Position numbers and translations under genes: made by a program
The notes under the pieces: generated by a model
The model's database searches: none
Seen by the model: the letters and a program-made list of their open reading frames with translations, nothing else
Told to the model about the DNA's origin: nothing
Origin: Caloramator sp.
GTDB taxonomy: Bacteria > Bacillota > Clostridia > Clostridiales > Caloramatoraceae
Assembly: GCA_026418935.1 (NCBI GenBank)
Contig: JAOAAJ010000115.1
Span: 1 to 60,453 of the forward strand
DNA length: 60,453 bases
Direction: 5' to 3'
Shown: in pieces, positions 2,363 to 49,133 of the stretch
Numbering within the stretch: the first letter of the stretch is position 1
Layout: the number at the start of each line of letters is the position of its first letter

Positions 2363-3667
2363 ATGTTTAAAATTGACTATGATAAACTAATAAAAAAAAT
2401 AAATGGTATAGAAACTATGAAATTCATAGGTAAAGTTAAAAAAGTCGTTGGACTTACAATAGAAGTTGAAGGAATAGATGCCTTCATAGGTGAGCTATGT
2501 AATATAAAATTATTAAATGGGAAAGATGTACAAGCTGAAGTTGTGGGTTTTACAGACAATGGTGTATTGTTAATGCCATTAGGAGATTTAGCGGGAGTAT
2601 CTACTGGATCTTTAGTTTTTCCAACTGGTAGCCAACTACAGGTGCCAGTTGGAAAACAGCTACTCGGCAAAGTACTTGATGGATTGGGAAGACCACTTGA
2701 TGGTTCAAGCATTATATATGATGCTAAATATAATCTTGATTCAGACCCTCCAAATCCTTTACAAAGGAAAAGAATAACCAATTTAATTTCAACAGGAGTT
2801 AAAGCAATAGATGGTTTCTTAACTTGTGGTTTAGGACAAAGAATTGGTATTTTTGCTGGTTCAGGAGTTGGTAAAAGTACTCTTTTAGGTATGATAGCTA
2901 AATATAGTGATGCAGATGTAAATGTTATAGGATTAATTGGTGAACGTGGAAGAGAGGTAAAGGAATTTATTGAAAAAGATTTAGGCGAAGAAGGTCTTAA
3001 AAAATCAGTAATTGTTGTAGCAACCTCAGACCAACCTCCACTACTTAGATTAAAAGGTGCATTTACTGCTACTGCAATAGCTGAATATTTTAGAGATCAG
3101 GGGTTAAATGTAATGCTTATGATGGATTCAGTTACACGTTTTGCAATGGCTCAACGTGAAGTTGGCTTAACTATAGGAGAACCCCCTACTACTAAAGGAT
3201 ATACTCCTTCAGTATTTGCTATGCTACCTAGACTGTTAGAAAGATCAGGTAATTCTAACAAGGGTTCTATAACTGCCTTCTACACAGTTTTAGTTGATGG
3301 TGACGACTTTAATGAACCAATAGCAGATGCTGTTAGAGGTATATTAGATGGTCATATTATTTTGTCAAGAAAACTAGCTTCGATGAATCATTTTCCAGCT
3401 ATTGATGTATTATCAAGTATTTCTAGATTAATGCCTCAAATCACAGAGGAAAAACACTATCTAAAAGCAGGTGAGTTAAGAGATTTACTCGCAATTTATA
3501 AAGAATCGGAAGATTTAATAAATGTAGGTGCATACCAAAAAGGAAGTAACGTAAAAATTGATAAAGCAATATCATTAAATGACAAAATAAATGAATTTTT
3601 AAGACAAAAAATGAATGAATATTATTCCTTTAATCAAGTTCTTGAAATGTTAAATTCAATAAATTAA
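2363..3667 (+). CDS. fliI: Flagellum-specific ATPase FliI
   Basis: A 434-residue F1-type ATPase. The Walker A loop GSGVGKS is at about residues 166-172, Walker B is LMMDSVTRFA near residue 255, and GERGREVKEF follows the family pattern. FliI energises export of rod, hook and filament subunits together with the proton gradient. Three in-frame ATGs (2354, 2357, 2363) follow fliH; AAAGGA at 2348-2353 is correctly spaced only for 2363. The 3' end is 15 bases before fliJ. Confidence 0.96.
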   Translation: MFKIDYDKLIKKINGIETMKFIGKVKKVVGLTIEVEGIDAFIGELCNIKLLNGKDVQAEVVGFTDNGVLLMPLGDLAGVSTGSLVFPTGSQLQVPVGKQLLGKVLDGLGRPLDGSSIIYDAKYNLDSDPPNPLQRKRITNLISTGVKAIDGFLTCGLGQRIGIFAGSGVGKSTLLGMIAKYSDADVNVIGLIGERGREVKEFIEKDLGEEGLKKSVIVVATSDQPPLLRLKGAFTATAIAEYFRDQGLNVMLMMDSVTRFAMAQREVGLTIGEPPTTKGYTPSVFAMLPRLLERSGNSNKGSITAFYTVLVDGDDFNEPIADAVRGILDGHIILSRKLASMNHFPAIDVLSSISRLMPQITEEKHYLKAGELRDLLAIYKESEDLINVGAYQKGSNVKIDKAISLNDKINEFLRQKMNEYYSFNQVLEMLNSIN

Positions 3668-3682
3668 TAGGTGGTCATTACT

Positions 3683-4123
3683 ATGAACTATAAATTTAGA
3701 TTAGAAAAACTATTAGAGCTAAAAATTAAAAATGAAGAATCACTTAAATTAGAAATGTCTGAATATTTGAATAAGATAAATATAAAAAAAAATCAAATTG
3801 ATAGTATAAAAGAGAAAATATATTATAGTAAAAACAATAAATGTAACTCAAATTTCAGCTATGATTTAAAGAATTACATTAGTTATATTAATTATTTAGA
3901 GAGCAAGCTTTTAGAGGAACAAAAAAATCTTAACATTTTAGAAAAAGAACTTGATAAAATAAAAGAACAGCTAATTAATGCTTCAAAAGAAAGAAAAGTA
4001 ATAGAAAACCTTAAAGAAAAGTCATATTATGATTATTTGCTTGAAATAAATAAAATCGAAAGTAAAAATAATGATGAAATGGCAATAATAAATTATTTCA
4101 AAAAGAATGGGGGAATTATATGA
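3683..4123 (+). CDS. fliJ: Flagellar export chaperone FliJ
   Basis: A 146-residue, highly charged, almost entirely helical protein beginning YKFRLEKLLELK, the usual FliJ N-terminus. FliJ is the central stalk-like subunit of the export ATPase. Sequence conservation in this family is low, so the call leans on its place after fliI, its length and its coiled-coil character. AGGTGG at 3669-3674 sets the ATG at 3683; upstream GTG-type starts lie inside this site. The stop overlaps the fliK start (ATGA). Confidence 0.85.
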   Translation: MNYKFRLEKLLELKIKNEESLKLEMSEYLNKINIKKNQIDSIKEKIYYSKNNKCNSNFSYDLKNYISYINYLESKLLEEQKNLNILEKELDKIKEQLINASKERKVIENLKEKSYYDYLLEINKIESKNNDEMAIINYFKKNGGII

Positions 4124-5460
4124 AGATAGAAAAAATACAAACATCAACCCCTAATATATTTAATATTACAAATAATATATCCCAAGATTCAATAAATTTT
4201 GAAGACTTATTATTAAATCTTTTTAATAATGAGGTTACTCAAATAAATACTAATACAGAGAAGAATATGCTTACTGATAAAATAAAAGAATTATTAAATT
4301 TAAATAATAAAGCTAATTTTATCATTAATAATCTAATTCAAGATAATATTAATTTATTATTTAATAACAAAATAGAAATCCAAAAAAGTAATGAAATTTC
4401 AACTAATTTAAATTTAAATATATTAGAAAAAGATTTAACAAATTTATTAAAAAATGAATTAAATTTAGAAAAAGACAATGATTTGAAATCAAATCTAACT
4501 GATTCTAATTTACAACAAGAATTAATAGATTTGTGTTGTTTTTTTTATAATTATATTAACAATAATCAAAATAACTTAATTAATTCACAAACAATTGATA
4601 CAGGTAATATTATAGATAATAAAGGTAAATTAAATATCAATTTAAATGATATAGTTAATTTTAATTATTTTAAAATCCTTTCAAACCATTTTATAAATAA
4701 TCAAACTATACAAAATAATTATGATAACAATAAATACCAAATTTATAAAGAGAATCAACAACAAATAAATAATAATTTTATTGACTTAAATAAAGTAAAA
4801 CAATTTGTCGATGATATAATTAAAACTTATGAAACTAATCCTTTGGAACAAGATTTGAACGTTATTATACCGAGGTACTCATTTAAAATAGATAGTAATA
4901 ACATTCTAAATCAAAATACATTTGATGAATTGGAAAGTAATGTTGACATATTAAAAAATTTTCAAAAGAAGCCCTCTGAAGTTGATAATATATCTGCTAT
5001 AGATATTAACTTTATAAATAAAAATAGTTTTTCCAGTATAGAAAAATTTGAAAATAAAAATTTAATGAAAACAAATGATTATTACAAAGTAGAGAATATT
5101 AATGAAATATTAAATATTGTATCAACTAAAATAAAAAATATTAAAAATGAAGACATATATGAATTAAAGATTTATCTTAAGCCAAGAGAACTAGGAGAAA
5201 TAAATATTAAGGTAACATATAACAATGGTAATGTTAATGGAATAATAATAGCTAACAATAAAGAAGTTGCTAATTTATTAAAAGAAAATATAAATTATTT
5301 AAAGGAACAAATAATAAACAATAACTATGAATATAAAGAAATAAATTTAAATGTGCAAACAGATAGTGAGCGTGATAATAATAATTACAATAAAAACAGA
5401 GATCAAAAACAAAAAAAGAAAAACAATAATACAGACTTTATAATACAACAAGATGAATAA
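4120..5460 (+). CDS. fliK: Flagellar hook-length control protein FliK
   Basis: A 446-residue protein. Residues 1 to about 330 are low-complexity and very rich in Asn, Ile and Lys, with no recognisable fold. The C-terminal ~90 residues match the FliK hook-length domain: LKIYLKPRELGEINIKV followed by NNGNVNGIIIANNKEVANLL, then Lys/Asn-rich tail. FliK is an exported ruler that switches FlhB specificity when the hook is complete, and the partner FlhB is in this operon. The start overlaps the fliJ stop by 4 bases. Confidence 0.85.
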   Translation: MKIEKIQTSTPNIFNITNNISQDSINFEDLLLNLFNNEVTQINTNTEKNMLTDKIKELLNLNNKANFIINNLIQDNINLLFNNKIEIQKSNEISTNLNLNILEKDLTNLLKNELNLEKDNDLKSNLTDSNLQQELIDLCCFFYNYINNNQNNLINSQTIDTGNIIDNKGKLNINLNDIVNFNYFKILSNHFINNQTIQNNYDNNKYQIYKENQQQINNNFIDLNKVKQFVDDIIKTYETNPLEQDLNVIIPRYSFKIDSNNILNQNTFDELESNVDILKNFQKKPSEVDNISAIDINFINKNSFSSIEKFENKNLMKTNDYYKVENINEILNIVSTKIKNIKNEDIYELKIYLKPRELGEINIKVTYNNGNVNGIIIANNKEVANLLKENINYLKEQIINNNYEYKEINLNVQTDSERDNNNYNKNRDQKQKKKNNNTDFIIQQDE

Positions 5461-42332: not shown

Positions 42333-42367
42333 AATAATAAGGACAGTTAAAAACTATCCTTATTATT
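42333..42367 (-). terminator. Terminator of rny
   Basis: AATAATAAGGACAGTT and AACTATCCTTATTATT form a 16-bp stem with one mismatch and a 3-base loop, followed on the minus strand by TTTTATTTG. The rny stop lies in the stem. Confidence 0.85.
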
Positions 42368-43910
42368 TTGCATATTCAATAGCTCTTATTTCCCTTATTA
42401 CATTAACTTTAATTTGACCTGGATATTCTAATTCACTTTCTATTCTCTTTACAATATCTCTTGCCATCTGAATCACATCAGCATCTGATATCTGTTCTGG
42501 TTTAACCATAATTCTTATTTCTCTACCTGCTTGAATAGCATAAGATTTTTCTACTCCTTCAAAGGAATCAGCAATTTCTTCTAATTTTTCTAATCTCTTT
42601 ATATAAGCTTCAAGCGTTTCTCTTCTTGCTCCAGGTCTTGCGGCTGAAATCGCATCTGCAGCTTGAACTAATATAGCCTCTATTGTCTGCGGTTCTAAAT
42701 CACCATGGTGTGCTGATACAGCATGTATCACTGCTGGAGATTCATTGTATTTCTTTAATATATCTCCACCTATTAATGCATGTGGGCCTTCTATTTCATG
42801 ATCTAAAGCTTTACCTATATCATGTAAAAGACCAGCTCTTTTTGCTAATGCAACATCAGCTCCAAGTTCAGAAGCCATCAACCCTGCTAAATAAGAAACT
42901 TCTATAGAATGTTTTAAAACATTTTGTCCATAGCTTGTTCTGTACTTTAGTCTACCAAGCAATCTAATTAATTCACTATGTAAACCATGTACACCAGTTT
43001 CAAAAGTAGCTTGTTCGCCTTGTTCGCGAATATCATTTTCAACTTCTTTCTTTGCCTTTTCAACCATCTCTTCAATTCTTGCAGGATGTATTCTACCATC
43101 TGCTATTAGCTTCTCTAATGCAAGTCTTGCAACTTCTCTTCTTATTGGATCAAAACCAGATAATATTACTGCTTCAGGTGTATCATCAATAATTAAATCG
43201 ATACCCGTTAATGTTTCTAATGTTCTAATGTTTCTACCTTCTCTTCCAATAATTCTACCCTTCATTTCATCATTTGGTAGACTTACAACTGAAACTGTAG
43301 TTTCAGCAACATGATCTGCAGCACATCTTTGTATTGCACAAGCAATTATTTCTCTTGCTTTTTTGTCAGCTTCTTCTTTTGCTTTAGTTTCAATTTCCTT
43401 AATTAACATTGCTGCATCATGTTTAACTTCTTCTCTTACATTATTTAAGATTATTTCCTTAGCCTCTTCAGTTGTTAGGTTAGCAATTCTTTCAAGTTCT
43501 TGAACTTGCTTTTTATAAACTTCATTCACCTGTTCTTGTAATTCTTGAATTTCTTGTTGTTTTTTTACTAAGCTTTCTTCTCTTGCTTCTAATGTTTCTA
43601 CCTTTTTATCGAGAGTCTCCTCTCTTAAAATTAATCTTCTCTCCATTCTTTGAATTTCATTTCTTCTTTCTCTTACTTCTTTTTCAAATTCATTTCTTAA
43701 CTTATGAACTTCTTCTTTTGCTTCAAGCATAGCCTCTTTTTTCTTTGATTCTGCCTCTTTTTCTGCATCTGACACAATCTTTTTTGCCAATTCTTCAGCT
43801 GATTGAATCTTTTTTTCAGATATATTCTTTCTTATAAAATAGCCTAAAAAGAAGGCTATCACTCCTGTAGCCCCAATCAATAAAAGCCAAACAAGCGTTT
43901 CTATACACAA
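42363..43910 (-). CDS. rny: Ribonuclease Y
   Basis: A roughly 515-residue membrane-anchored endoribonuclease: N-terminal transmembrane helix ([20 protein letters not shown]), a long coiled coil (about 25-200), a KH domain ([20 protein letters not shown]) and an HD domain ([12 protein letters not shown]). It starts mRNA decay and organises the degradosome. The start is uncertain: GTG 43913 and TTG 43910 are in frame but unusually close to GAGGGAGG, while an ATA at 43904 has ideal spacing. It has its own promoter and a ~140-base leader. Confidence 0.95.
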
Positions 43911-43972
43911 CACCTCCCTCTACAGTCAAACAATATTTATTGTATAACATATAGTTATTTTTAAATTAATAA

Positions 43973-44056: not shown

Positions 44057-44085
44057 ATTTTATTATAGTTTTAATTTTATGTCAA
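44057..44085 (-). promoter_or_regulatory. Sigma-A promoter of rny
   Basis: On the minus strand TTGACA (44085-44080), a 17-base spacer and TAAAAT (44062-44057). The -35 overlaps the stop codon of the upstream Rad50-like C-terminal gene. Confidence 0.8.
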
Positions 44086-44738
44086 GTTACAGGGGTAACA
44101 CTACTAACAGTATCAATTAATTCTACCCTATACTTTTTATCTGCAGATTCTAATAGATGTGTATTATGAGTAACCATAATAATCTGCCTATTAAACATTT
44201 TAGAAACCTGCTTTAAAAATTCAGCAACATTAATTACATAATCTTCACTCACATGCTTTGCTGGTTCATCTAATATTAATGGACCATTTATTTTTGGATT
44301 ATGAGCTTCTAATAGTGCTATCCTAAGTGCCAAAGATACTATATCAACTACTCCTCCTCCTCTTGATACCTCAGGTCTAGTTGTTACACTTTGTCCATTT
44401 TCTAAAGGGGTTATAACAAAAAAATCTGCTTCATTTCTATTTGCTTTTTCATTTAACTCTATTTTAAACTCAATATTTGAATTAAAAATATACTGCAAAC
44501 AATTTGTTACAATATATTCAATTTGCTGTTTTGATTGATTACGAGCATATTCAGAAACATTTTGAAGTAGCCTTTTAGATTCTAACAAAGTAAGTTCCCT
44601 TTTTTCTAAAACTTTTAACTTTTCTTCTATTGCTTTTTTTTCATTATTTAGAGCCTGTAATTGTCCCTTAAGTTCATAGTAAATTTGTTTTTCTTCTTCA
44701 AATTTCTTATTTAAACAATTTAATTTTTCTAACCACAT
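44082..44738 (-). CDS. Rad50/SbcC-like ATPase, C-terminal half
   Basis: A 218-residue protein with an N-terminal coiled coil (1-75) and the C-terminal lobe of an SMC/Rad50-type ATPase: signature-like SRGGGVVDIVSLALRIAL (Ser125 to Leu142), Walker B PLILDEPAKH (Asp157, Glu158) and H-loop His191 (MVTHNTH). It has no Walker A, so it must pair with another chain. That partner is the 479-residue protein encoded two genes upstream. TAGGGTGATAAT provides its own ribosome binding site. Confidence 0.82.
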   Translation of the reverse strand: MWLEKLNCLNKKFEEEKQIYYELKGQLQALNNEKKAIEEKLKVLEKRELTLLESKRLLQNVSEYARNQSKQQIEYIVTNCLQYIFNSNIEFKIELNEKANRNEADFFVITPLENGQSVTTRPEVSRGGGVVDIVSLALRIALLEAHNPKINGPLILDEPAKHVSEDYVINVAEFLKQVSKMFNRQIIMVTHNTHLLESADKKYRVELIDTVSSVTPVT

Positions 44739-44747
44739 ATTATCACC

Positions 44748-44987
44748 CTATATATCCTTTGGTATTAAACCTTCTGCTTCATTAATTAGAGCCAGTATTT
44801 CGTTTTCTAAGTTTTTTATTTCTTGCTCTAAATTATCAGGTTCAAACCCTAATTTTTTTATTTCATTCATTAATTCTTTTTTCTGTATTTGAAGCTGTTC
44901 TAATCTTGTCTCAGCTTTTATTCTTTTATTTTTTGCATATTCAAGTCTTCGTTTTAAATCATTTAATTTTTCTTCGTAGTTATACAT
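44748..44987 (-). CDS. Small coiled-coil protein of the split Rad50 operon
   Basis: A 79-residue, almost fully helical protein: YEEKLNDLKRRLEYAKNKRI, RLEQLQIQKKELMNEI, EPDNLEQEIKNLENEILALI, ending EAEGLIPKDI. It lies between the N-terminal and C-terminal halves of a Rad50-like ATPase and in the same reading frame as both, separated by TAA TAA ATG and TAG-GGT-GAT-AAT-ATG. GAGGAGGAATAATAA is a strong ribosome binding site. It probably joins the coiled-coil arm of the complex; no direct evidence. Confidence 0.7.
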   Translation of the reverse strand: MYNYEEKLNDLKRRLEYAKNKRIKAETRLEQLQIQKKELMNEIKKLGFEPDNLEQEIKNLENEILALINEAEGLIPKDI

Positions 44988-44990
44988 TTA

Positions 44991-46430
44991 TTATTCCTCC
45001 TCAATTATACTTAAAATTTTATCAATACTTAATTCATCAATTTCACTTCCACACATAGGACAAACATTTATATTTTTTAATATACTTTTATAACTATCCT
45101 TTAAATTAGAAATTTCAGCTGTACATTTTTTATAATCTAAAGATATATCTGAAATTTCTTTTTTCATTTTATTATAGTTTTCACTATAATCTATAATATT
45201 TTTAAATTTGTATATTTTTTCATCAATAAAATATATTAATTCAATACACCTATCTAGTTTATCAAACTTTTTCATATATTCATTTCCTTTAGAAATAGAC
45301 ATAGTACACGAAATATATTTATTGTATTTATCATTTAATTGAGAATACTTAATAAGTACCTGTTCTATTTTTTGTACTATCTTATCTATCTCAGGAATAT
45401 TTCTTGTATTAACTTCAATCTTTTCATTTAATTTTATATCATTATTTAATGTAAAACTTTTTTGTTTTAATTCATATAAAATGCCATATTTTTGTATTAG
45501 ATCAATTAATTTTTTTATATATGTATTTACTGTATCTATATTATCTGTCTTTTCTATTATTTCCTGCTGTTTTAAAATATCACTACTTATTAGATTTATA
45601 CTGCTATTTATATTATTTAATTTTATAAAATCATATATTTTTTTCTCTAATATTTTTATATCGAAGTTTTCTATAAACTTTAATTCTTGAACAGTTTTTT
45701 CCATTTCTATAATTTCTGTATTTAATTGTTTTATCGTTTCATTATATTTTTTTATTACATCTAATAAATTTATCTTTTGTTGAAGCTTATACAATATTTT
45801 TTCTTTCTCTATTATATATAATTCTAAATCATTTACATAGTTTAAAGAATCTATCTTCTTATTAATTTCACTTAAATTGTCTTTTATGACTTTTGTATCG
45901 CTTTGAATAAGATTGATGTCTTTGTTTATATCCTTAATAGCTTCATCTATTATATTTAGCCCTACAATCTTACCTATTGCCTTTGATTTAAAAGAATTAG
46001 GTTGACTTAACAAAAACGGTCCTTCTAATTGTTCTGATAAATTTAAACACATGTCATTATCCTTGTCAATTTTTATTTTTTTAATCTTATGAGCCTCTAA
46101 TATTTCTAACGGAATATCGTTACCAAATCCTTCGAATACAAATTCTTCTCCATTCTTAATTAATCTATATGAATTTTTAGTTTTTGTTCTTTCTCTTATT
46201 ATTTTTACTCCATCTGATAAGGTTAAAGTTACTCTACAGTAATTAGAATCAAACCTTATAAACTCAGAACCCTTGGGTTCATTAAATAAGCACCATTTTA
46301 AAGCCCTTATAATGGCTGATTTCCCATTATCAGAGGGACCTACAATAACATTTAAATTTTCGCTAAAATCAAGCTTTGAATATTTATGTGATTGAAAATT
46401 TTCAATTTCAATTGATTTTATGTAAATCAA
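44991..46430 (-). CDS. Rad50/SbcC-like ATPase, N-terminal half with terminal zinc hook
   Basis: A 479-residue protein: N-terminal ATPase lobe with Walker A GPSDNGKS at residues 31-38 and Q-loop LLSQPNSF near residue 119, then about 270 residues of coiled coil, and a zinc-hook motif CPMCG (Cys457, Cys460) only about 20 residues from the end. A normal Rad50/SbcC continues into a return coil and C-terminal lobe; here those are separate genes downstream. The start is TTG overlapping the nuclease stop (TTGA), behind GAGGTGG. Confidence 0.85.
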   Translation of the reverse strand: MIYIKSIEIENFQSHKYSKLDFSENLNVIVGPSDNGKSAIIRALKWCLFNEPKGSEFIRFDSNYCRVTLTLSDGVKIIRERTKTKNSYRLIKNGEEFVFEGFGNDIPLEILEAHKIKKIKIDKDNDMCLNLSEQLEGPFLLSQPNSFKSKAIGKIVGLNIIDEAIKDINKDINLIQSDTKVIKDNLSEINKKIDSLNYVNDLELYIIEKEKILYKLQQKINLLDVIKKYNETIKQLNTEIIEMEKTVQELKFIENFDIKILEKKIYDFIKLNNINSSINLISSDILKQQEIIEKTDNIDTVNTYIKKLIDLIQKYGILYELKQKSFTLNNDIKLNEKIEVNTRNIPEIDKIVQKIEQVLIKYSQLNDKYNKYISCTMSISKGNEYMKKFDKLDRCIELIYFIDEKIYKFKNIIDYSENYNKMKKEISDISLDYKKCTAEISNLKDSYKSILKNINVCPMCGSEIDELSIDKILSIIEEE

Positions 46431-47416: not shown

Positions 47417-48040
47417 CTACTCCCATTCTATTTCTTTATCTATTTTTTGTAATACTTTTTTTATTTCTTCATTTGTATATCCCTTATAATACAAAAATCT
47501 TGCTACTTTAATTAAAGCATCTTTACTATTTTTATATGCTTTAAATTTTTTTAGAGCCAAATCGTATGCATTTTTGAACATTTCATCTTCATTAAAATCA
47601 ATCTTTTCAACAATATTATTATTTACTCCCTTTATTTTTAATTCATTTAAAATTCTTACCCTACCAAGCTTATTCATATTTATCTTTTTTCTAACGAATT
47701 TATTAGCATATTTGAAATCATCTATCAATTCATACTCTTGAAGTTTATTAATTATAATTTCAATACTGTTTTCACTATATCCCTTTTGTTTTAATTTATC
47801 AACAAATTCTTTTTTAGAATAATCTCTTATATTTAATAGATTTAACGCATATCTATATCCTTTATTTATTTCACATTCCTGTATTAATGTTGTTAATTCC
47901 TTTTCACTTATATTTCTATCAATCTTTATATCATATTTAATTATATCCTCTAAATCAGCCGAAAAACAATATATCCCATCTATATATATATTATATCTAT
48001 CACTTTTTTTCTTTTGTTTTTCAATTCCAGTTATTTGCAT
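47417..48040 (-). CDS. recX: RecA regulator RecX
   Basis: A 207-residue protein built of repeated three-helix units typical of RecX: YRYALNLLNIRDYSKKEFVD, KLQEYELIDDFKYANKFV and the C-terminal ALIKVARFLYYKGYTNEEI. RecX binds RecA filaments and modulates strand exchange. AAAGGAGTTGATTAG gives the ribosome binding site. It lies after the recA terminator, so its expression depends on readthrough or an unseen promoter. Confidence 0.93.
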   Translation of the reverse strand: MQITGIEKQKKKSDRYNIYIDGIYCFSADLEDIIKYDIKIDRNISEKELTTLIQECEINKGYRYALNLLNIRDYSKKEFVDKLKQKGYSENSIEIIINKLQEYELIDDFKYANKFVRKKINMNKLGRVRILNELKIKGVNNNIVEKIDFNEDEMFKNAYDLALKKFKAYKNSKDALIKVARFLYYKGYTNEEIKKVLQKIDKEIEWE

Positions 48041-48098: not shown

Positions 48099-49133
48099 CT
48101 ACTCTTCACTTTTATTGTCTAAATTTGCATTTGTTGTTAAATTAGATAAAGGTAAATTATATTTTTGCCTAATGGCATTTTCGATTTCTAAAGCAACTTG
48201 TGGATTTTCTTTTAAATAGTTTTTAGCGTTTTCTCTTCCTTGACCAAGCTTAATATCTTTATATGAGAACCATGCTCCACTTTTTTGTATTATATTGTTA
48301 TTTACCGCTACATCTAATATATTACCTTCCTTAGAAATACCTTCACCATACATTATATCAAATTCTGCTTGCTTAAATGGAAGTGCAACTTTATTTTTAA
48401 CCACCTTTACCCTTGTTCTACTTCCCAGAACATCTTCACCTTGTTTAATTGAATCTACCTTTCTAACATCCAATCTTACAGAGGCATAGAATTTAAGTGC
48501 CCTACCTCCAGGTGTCGTTTCTGGGCTACCAAACATTACACCTACTTTTTCTCTTAATTGGTTTATAAAAATTGCAACACATTTTGATTTATTTATTGCA
48601 CCAGCTAATTTTCTAAGTGCTTGAGACATAAGCCTTGCTTGTAATCCTACAAAAGCATCTCCCATTTCACCTTCAATTTCTGCCTTTGGTACCAATGCAG
48701 CAACTGAGTCGATTACAATTACATCTATTGCACCTGATCTTACTAATGCTTCAGCAATTTCAAGTGCTTGTTCTCCAGTATCTGGTTGAGAAACAACCAA
48801 ATTAGATACATCAACACCAAGCTTAGTTGCATATGTAGGATCTAGTGCATGTTCTGCATCTATGAAAGCTGCAGTTCCTCCATTTTTTTGTGCTTCTGCT
48901 ACTATATGAAGTGCTACTGTTGTTTTACCTGATGATTCAGGGCCATATATTTCTACTATTCTTCCTCTTGGAACTCCTCCAATTCCAAGTGCTATATCTA
49001 AATCAAGCGAACCAGTTGATATTGCTTCAACATTTAACTTTGAATTTTCTCCTAACTTCATTATTGAACCTTTGCCAAACTGTTTTTCTATTTGGCTTAA
49101 TGCCAATTCTAATGCTTTTTGTTTTTCATTCAT
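48099..49133 (-). CDS. recA: Recombinase RecA
   Basis: A 344-residue RecA: Walker A GPESSGKT at residues 64-71, [20 protein letters not shown] with loop L1, [20 protein letters not shown] and L2 around [11 protein letters not shown]. It drives strand exchange and activates LexA cleavage. AAGGAAGGATAAA precedes the ATG. The promoter has a LexA box just after the -10, so it is SOS-induced. Confidence 0.98.

Follow-up and report, generated by a model that had tools for sequence, protein, structure and literature searches.

A conserved split Rad50-like ATPase with an adjoining Mre11-like gene in Caloramator and its relatives

Rad50 is near-universal and is normally a single chain with a zinc hook in mid-chain, and the role of its long arm and hook is debated. 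A contig of Caloramator sp. (GenBank assembly GCA_026418935.1, contig JAOAAJ010000115.1), analysed over its 60,453 nucleotides and referred to here as the window, carries a Rad50-like ATPase spread over three consecutive open reading frames (ORFs), P1, P2 and P3, on the minus strand at 46430–44082, with the gene of an Mre11-like nuclease, P4, directly upstream. This raises the question of whether the three ORFs are the debris of one gene or the separate subunits of one machine and, if the latter, what the small middle protein contributes. The explanation that we consider likely, from sequence comparisons and structural models, is a conserved split Mre11-Rad50 machine that would assemble in trans, with P2 as a third subunit associated with the arm and hook. 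Searches of open-licence papers yielded no description of a split Rad50/SbcC or of its distribution.

All genes of the window considered here lie on the minus strand. P4 (46427–47410) encodes an Mre11/SbcD-like protein of the calcineurin type with 327 residues (Pfam Metallophos, 1.2e-18), and its stop overlaps the start of P1 by 4 bases. P1 (44991–46430, TTG start, 479 residues) corresponds to the N-terminal half of a Rad50-like ATPase followed by an ascending arm and a terminal zinc hook; it matches AAA_23 (1.3e-14) and, over residues 2–465, phrog_16465 (6e-65). Its Walker A motif, GPSDNGKS, occupies residues 31–38 (46317–46340) and the hook motif CPMCG residues 457–461 (45048–45062), with 19 residues after the second cysteine, or 18 after the glycine. 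Three bases separate P1 from P2 (44748–44987), a coiled-coil subunit of 79 residues (phrog_18563, 5e-7), and a further 9 bases separate P2 from P3 (44082–44738), the 218-residue C-terminal half of the ATPase with a short coil (phrog_15167, 8.5e-57). Shine-Dalgarno matches of 6 bases precede P1, P2 and P3, the ribosome binding sites being GAGGAGG at 44996–45002 for P2 and GGTGAT at 44742–44747 for P3, and a 4-base match precedes P4. Re-reading the sequence bore out the anatomy given in the first-pass annotation, made from this DNA alone, which had described three cistrons in one frame interrupted by TAA-TAA-ATG and TAG-GGT-GAT-AAT-ATG, a ribosome binding site at each break, a zinc hook close to where a chain ends (the CPMCG motif begins at residue 457 of 479) and an Mre11-like nuclease encoded just upstream.

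This layout is conserved. One genome per species was scanned with an 11-row P3 alignment, yielding 131 relatives; the top 80 of them, including Caloramator, Tissierella, Thermosediminibacter and Acetivibrio, were taken. At 63 of the 80 loci P1, P2 and P3 are all separate ORFs on one strand, with no fusion at any of the 63, and P4 is also present in the retrieved stretch at 61 of them. A CPxC motif lies 16–25 residues before the end of P1 at 61 of the 63, the exceptions (L059 and L092) being shortened P1 frames. Across the family, Shine-Dalgarno matches of at least 4 bases precede 97% of P1 (n = 59), 89% of P2 (n = 62) and 89% of P3 starts (n = 61), compared with 35% of control ATGs (n = 2520). 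The arrangement first described for the window, in which an Mre11-like nuclease is accompanied by two Rad50-like ATPase halves and a coiled coil, each a subunit of its own, holds in Clostridia, and it recurs in some phages. Moreover, the split looks old, since split forms occur both in phages and in most bacteria of the 35-taxon tree discussed below. In Caloramator sp. mosi_1 (chromosome; L035 and L006) the P4, P1 and P2 frames are broken, perhaps through indel errors of the assembly (estimated completeness of G004, 74%).

The reading frames are not conserved: P1 and P2 are in frame at 17 of the 63 loci, P2 and P3 at 10 and all three at two, namely L100 and L059, in the latter of which P1 is broken. 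With all three in frame in so few relatives, the common frame of the window is uninformative about any earlier single ORF and is accidental. The earlier suggestion that it records one broken ancestral ORF is not supported, in view also of the absence of fusions, the placement of P3 elsewhere in one lineage and the split forms in phages; close relatives with one uninterrupted ORF were not found among the 63 loci, and the single-chain forms that were found are armless.

P3 stands alone at 16 of the 80 loci (L041–L047, L049, L051, L052, L054, L055, L058, L063, L064 and L095), lying upstream of rny at 13 of them, the 13 where rny was found; L102 consists of P2 and P3 on a 3.4-kb contig. In each of the ten P3-only genomes tested, which belong to an Acetivibrio-type lineage, P1 is located at another locus where it is flanked by P4 and P2. 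One half of the ATPase head is encoded there apart from the other and, because P4, P1 and P2 lie away from P3 in all ten, assembly in trans appears to be the natural state. In a sample of 299 genomes of the phylum, including that of the window, P3 was detected in 48 and at 51 places, one of them within a long frame of 702 residues (G083) and the rest in frames of 155–282 residues, while a class sample gave P3 in 21 of 291 genomes, in frames of 219–264 residues. Three genomes (G109, G147 and G334) have two P3 places each, and one of the G147 copies (L151) stands in a phage-like gene order.

P2 is inherited together with P3. At the thresholds applied to the phylum sample, 46 of the 48 P3-positive genomes have it and no P3-negative genome does; the two P3-positive genomes without it are G083, in which the heads are fused and arms are absent, and G195, in which the 5' side of P3 is at a contig end. 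The open frame spans 79–165 residues at all 49 P2 places and so is never joined there to P1 or P3. Mean pairwise identities calculated over 56 rows (55 loci and the window) are 0.56 for P2, 0.59 for the P1 head and 0.59–0.66 for the P3 head, against 0.25 and 0.19 for the two parts of the P1 arm, 0.26 for the segment just before the hook and 0.29 for the P3 coil; the hook and tail of P1 reach 0.44, and hook-near P1 0.35–0.44. In its conservation P2 comes close to the ATPase heads, in contrast to the arms, and by this measure it is not an ordinary arm spacer. In its first helix the heptad positions a (0.65), d (0.86), e (0.68) and g (0.62) exceed b (0.45), c (0.42) and f (0.37) in conservation, and in the second helix a (0.84), d (0.85) and g (0.76) are conserved and the other positions are not; each helix therefore presents one conserved coiled-coil face. 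An AlphaFold2 model of P2 consists of two helices, at residues 4–45 and 50–74 (predicted local distance difference test score, pLDDT, 84; predicted template modelling score, pTM, 0.44), and a Foldseek search with this model matched no chain of the PDB, which is no proof of a new fold. The best reading of these sequence properties is that P2 serves as an arm/hook subunit of the split machine.

Natural armless forms point in the same direction. A related system, lacking arms, hook and coil, occurs in all eight genomes examined from one family of Firmicutes (f53, to which G083 belongs; L146 and L173–L184). In six of them a single ORF of 686–787 residues combines P4 with both heads, that of P1 and that of P3, and in two the heads make up one protein of 379–382 residues, P4 being encoded by a separate ORF. 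A CXXC motif is present in none of the eight head proteins. The search of these genomes for P2 gave no convincing match and one marginal one (E 0.004, in a 390-residue frame), with all three positive controls found; P2 matches in two phage records arose there by construction, these being rows of the query alignment. By these armless fusions, which lack hook and P2, the nuclease and the two heads appear to belong to one machine, and P2 appears to go with the arm and hook. In the 35-taxon tree, built from the heads and nuclease, the seven armless genomes included are monophyletic (support 100) and fall among split forms; with rooting on two phages and weak backbone support (35–76), the tree is no proof of a derived origin of the armless form. 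In a search of three SbcC loci of clostridia, meant as an outgroup, the P3-head profile listed none of them.

Profiles and most motifs relate P1 and P3 to Rad50. P1 exceeds the Pfam cut-off for AAA_23, and P3 matches SMC_N and AAA_15, in both cases below the cut-off. Searched against the PDB, the P1 profile has Rad50 chains as its top matches (5f3w, 6.6e-16), and its positions 413–474 align with the Rad50 zinc-hook structure 1l8d (9.8e-5), consistent with the CXXC motif being a zinc hook; for the P3 profile the top matches are C-terminal halves of Rad50 (3qkr, 8e-9). Most rows of the P1 alignment carry GPSDxGK[ST], and Q134, which we take to be the Q-loop residue, is nearly invariant, as in the N-terminal ABC lobe of Rad50/SbcC. 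In P3 the Walker B motif (LDEP; PLILDE at residues 153–158, 44265–44282) and the H-loop (TH, residues 190–191, 44166–44171) are conserved, and together with Walker A they look canonical. The first-pass annotation had assigned P3 a signature loop, a Walker B motif and an H-loop; the last two stand, but the signature is non-canonical, with RGGG(V/I) (RGGGV in the window, 44349–44363) aligned by profile with the LSGGE of Pyrococcus furiosus (Pfu) Rad50 in place of LSGG(E/Q). A reading of SRGGG in which arginine takes the position of the signature serine was rejected, since the profile alignment sets the arginine opposite leucine and the glycine opposite serine. P4 combines a partner ATPase gene with the largely conserved motifs TDxHxR, GGDxxDRP, GNHD, HGM and GHYH (56-row alignment), as in Mre11/SbcD, and scores below the curated cut-offs (37.1 bits against 500 for the NCBIfam model Mre11_Sulfo, 2.2e-9; 26.2 against 77.65 for sbcd). 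P1 likewise reaches 57.8 bits against 1000 for Rad50_Sulf, a full-length equivalog cut-off of the kind that a half protein can hardly attain. By its anatomy the system would work as Mre11-Rad50 does, but it has neither a single chain with a central hook, being three ORFs with the hook near the end of P1, nor a canonical signature, and we therefore describe it as a split branch of the Rad50/SMC superfamily and do not place it within the SbcC or Rad50 equivalogs.

The predicted fold places one head across two chains. A read-through of the three ORFs, with the stops replaced by glutamine, was modelled from a 40-row alignment (mean pLDDT 77.8, with low confidence at the artificial joints), and the P1 arm appears in it as six helices of 37–62 residues each. 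A Foldseek comparison with the PDB ranked two chains (C and D) of the Chaetomium Mre11-Rad50-Nbs1 complex 7zr1 first, with SMC heads coming next, and VIA-align superimposed the head, comprising parts of both P1 and P3, on Rad50 3av0 with a Z score of 28.2 and a root-mean-square deviation of 4.8 over 352 residues. The P1 and P3 halves are thus predicted to make one head of the Rad50/SMC type.

The genes are closely associated with recA and rny. In the window P4 is preceded by recX (47417–48040; RecX model, 1.5e-37, below its cut-offs) and recA (48099–49133; TIGR02012, 580.6 bits, above cut-off), and P3 is followed by rny, encoding RNase Y (42363–43913; TIGR03319, 810 bits, above cut-off); PgsA also exceeds its curated cut-off. 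Among the 63 loci recA is found at 54, in some together with recX, rny at 55 and both recA and rny at 51. Short contigs make up several of the misses, but L067, L108, L109, L112 and L113 show neither gene. The distribution relative to SbcC-like genes approaches mutual exclusion. With TIGR00618 at 1e-10, nine of 20 genomes, including that of the window, have the split system only, nine an SbcC-like match only, none both and two neither; in the phylum sample without the window genome (298 genomes) 47 have the split system, 120 an SbcC-like match at 1e-15 and two both, where about 19 would be expected (47 × 120/298). These two are G136, whose split copy has a phage-like gene order, and G216, whose SbcC match is weak. 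On these patterns the split system probably replaces SbcCD. In two relatives (G006, 94% complete, and G022, 99% complete) the split system and SbcC-like matches were both absent at the thresholds applied.

Three separate phage families, PHROGs 16465, 18563 and 15167, match P1, P2 and P3, respectively. The gene order in Bacillus phage vB_BboS-125 is P1, an HNH/AP2 gene, P2, P3, one more gene and a P4 homologue, the pairing of the PHROGs with gp32, gp34 and gp35 resting on name and size. The annotations of the three products go no further than exonuclease, hypothetical protein and ATPase, and the P4 homologue, an Mre11-like ORF of 326 residues with 37% identity to P4, is unannotated between gp36 and gp37 (NC_048735.1, 22423–23403; L029:8256–9236). 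Microcystis phage Mvi-JY20 carries P1, P4, a 94-residue protein in the place of P2, and P3; this protein has 22% identity to P2 in alignment A3, a likeness not confirmed independently. In an uncultured phage of 485 kb P1, P4 and P3 are spread across 8 kb. The hook is near the end of P1 in four of the five phage or viral P1 proteins that were read in frame and also in L114. Microbacterium phage Magritte (L030:1839–2891 and L031:1–934) has a P3 homologue as gene 2 at the genome end, with gene 1 a P2 candidate by position only, and its P1 homologue, gene 155, has 350 residues and lacks a CXXC motif. In the phage-like bacterial locus L151 a ParB/Noc-like gene (2640–3467) separates P2 from P3, and P3 is separated from P4 by a gene (4036–5070) that has HNH_3 and homing-endonuclease-associated repeats. 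According to PMC2988022, homing endonucleases split genes whose pieces reassemble in trans, as for nrdA of phage Aeh1, and gene 43 of phage 25 is likewise a split phage gene with reassembly of its pieces. The present system resembles these in that separate polypeptides would reassemble and that an HNH gene stands beside the pieces at two loci, and it differs in that the split extends across many bacterial families and includes a third subunit of its own. By analogy, a phage origin through gene splitting by homing endonucleases is possible.

We infer from this material that the four proteins assemble physically into a DNA repair nuclease. P4 would be the nuclease, P1 would provide that half of the head which carries Walker A, along with the ascending arm and a zinc hook as chain end, and P3 the half with signature, Walker B motif and H-loop, together with a short descending coil. 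P1 and P3 would meet in trans to form one composite head, and a pair of these heads would join a P4 dimer in an ATP-gated complex that processes DNA ends, the cutting being performed by P4. P2 most likely completes the descending arm near the hook, where it would pair along one conserved coiled-coil face. The machine probably substitutes for SbcCD beside recA.

A number of observations weigh against this reading. The read-through model has a pTM of 0.50, and SMC heads score equal to or above Rad50 in VIA-align, such that the fold is not specific to Rad50. The signature serine of LSGGE is replaced by glycine in P3, and PMC7247530 reports that a change of the signature serine abolishes ATP binding by P. 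furiosus Rad50, the residue reported there being arginine, not glycine. The avoidance between split and SbcC-like genes in the 298 genomes (Fisher 2.4e-9) is uncorrected for shared descent; SbcC-like matches above the curated cut-off number 0 of 20 and 0 of 299 genomes and, among 14 control genomes, one exceeds it, although 11 and 10 of the 14 match. In addition, the SbcC search of the phylum sample scored two candidates per genome, and 133 of the 298 genomes have neither system. Finally, the P1 arm, at about 290 residues, is about twice as long as P2 and the P3 coil combined (about 135), which does not fit an arm of two simply matched strands.

Could the three ORFs nevertheless result from sequencing errors, or from recent nonsense decay of one Rad50 gene? 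Their single frame in the window and the gaps of only 3 and 9 bases would suit such an origin, but fusions are absent at the 63 loci, frames are scattered, P2 and P3 have their own ribosome binding sites and the pieces fall into three PHROGs; since relatives carry the same separate genes in other frames we rejected this explanation, which is hardly conceivable. The contiguous layout and short gaps would equally accommodate a full-length Rad50 made by stop read-through, hopping or frameshifting, with the three pieces as by-products. That, too, was rejected on the gene arrangement of relatives and is highly improbable: the frames are not conserved, P3 is elsewhere in all ten Acetivibrio-type genomes tested, and another gene intervenes between P1 and P2 in one phage and between P2 and P3 in one phage-like locus. 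Improbable as well is that bacteria carry here a phage-borne or Lamassu-like defence system and not a repair enzyme. Homologues are present in phages, some genomes have a second copy in phage-like order, and in a PADLOC scan of P1–P4 the halves matched LmuB models partially (best LmuB 3.4e-18, over P1 residues 1–95; mad3 4.3e-13 for P3), with no LmuA among the matches listed (for P1, the best 25 of 32). Against this stand the joint recA and rny flanks at 51 of the 63 loci, the rarity of genomes that also hold SbcC-like genes, and Rad50 as the nearest structure by profile.

The role of P2 is where other readings deserve most weight. It may be a mere spacer segment of the descending arm with no function of its own, in keeping with the clean heptads of both helices, the gene order between P1 and P3 and the absence of P2 where arms are absent (the eight f53 genomes, apart from the marginal match). 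Yet a spacer would drift like the arm, and P2 identity is 0.56 where the arm segments on either side have 0.19–0.29; in helix 1, moreover, positions e and g are about as conserved as a. On balance we find the spacer reading doubtful. Somewhat unlikely, in our view, is that P2 pairs with itself or with hook-near P1 only, acting at the apex as a clamp or gate that can detach and not as part of a two-strand arm. Each helix having one conserved face while most of the partner arm in P1 is unconserved, the excess length of that arm and the short P1 tail after the hook would all be in accord with this, but, although hook-near P1 is moderately conserved, the segment just before it is not. A more specific form, offered as speculation and rather unlikely, makes P2 a dedicated gate at the Rad50 apex that would self-associate or clip onto the terminal P1 hook, its binding and release, and not zinc only, opening and closing the arms; if true, the joint by which this Rad50 tethers DNA would be a part that can be separated and exchanged.

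For the split machine with P2 as an arm/hook subunit, comparison with known systems brings out what is shared and what is not. With archaeal and eukaryotic Mre11-Rad50 (5f3w, 3aux, 3qkr and 3av0) it has in common homologous head halves and hook, an adjoining Mre11-like gene and the fold of a composite head; the differences are the three chains, the hook at a chain end, RGGG(V/I) for LSGG(E/Q) and the extra conserved subunit of 79 residues. Bacterial SbcCD (TIGR00618/TIGR00619) is similar in probable role and in the type of nuclease partner, and the two systems seldom co-occur; the window genome has no TIGR00618 match at 1e-10, and the P3-head profile does not list the SbcC loci mentioned above. 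Phage vB_BboS-125 shares a family of its own for each piece, the P1-P2-P3 order and a downstream P4 homologue, and differs in the HNH/AP2 gene between P1 and P2. The crystallised Rad50 catalytic domain 1f2t (A and B) also has its N- and C-terminal halves as separate chains. That two-chain form is engineered and armless, with the halves forming a working head, whereas the split described here is natural and comes with arm, hook and P2.

The natural division into N-terminal head with hook, small coil and C-terminal head, together with the armless family, provides matched sets for asking what the arms and the hook of Rad50 do, and renders the parts of a Rad50 machine testable separately in many relatives of Clostridium. 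The findings suggest that three phage families, labelled at present as exonuclease, unknown and ATPase, function together. For the many Firmicutes in which SbcC is not detected, the split system is a likely stand-in for SbcCD.

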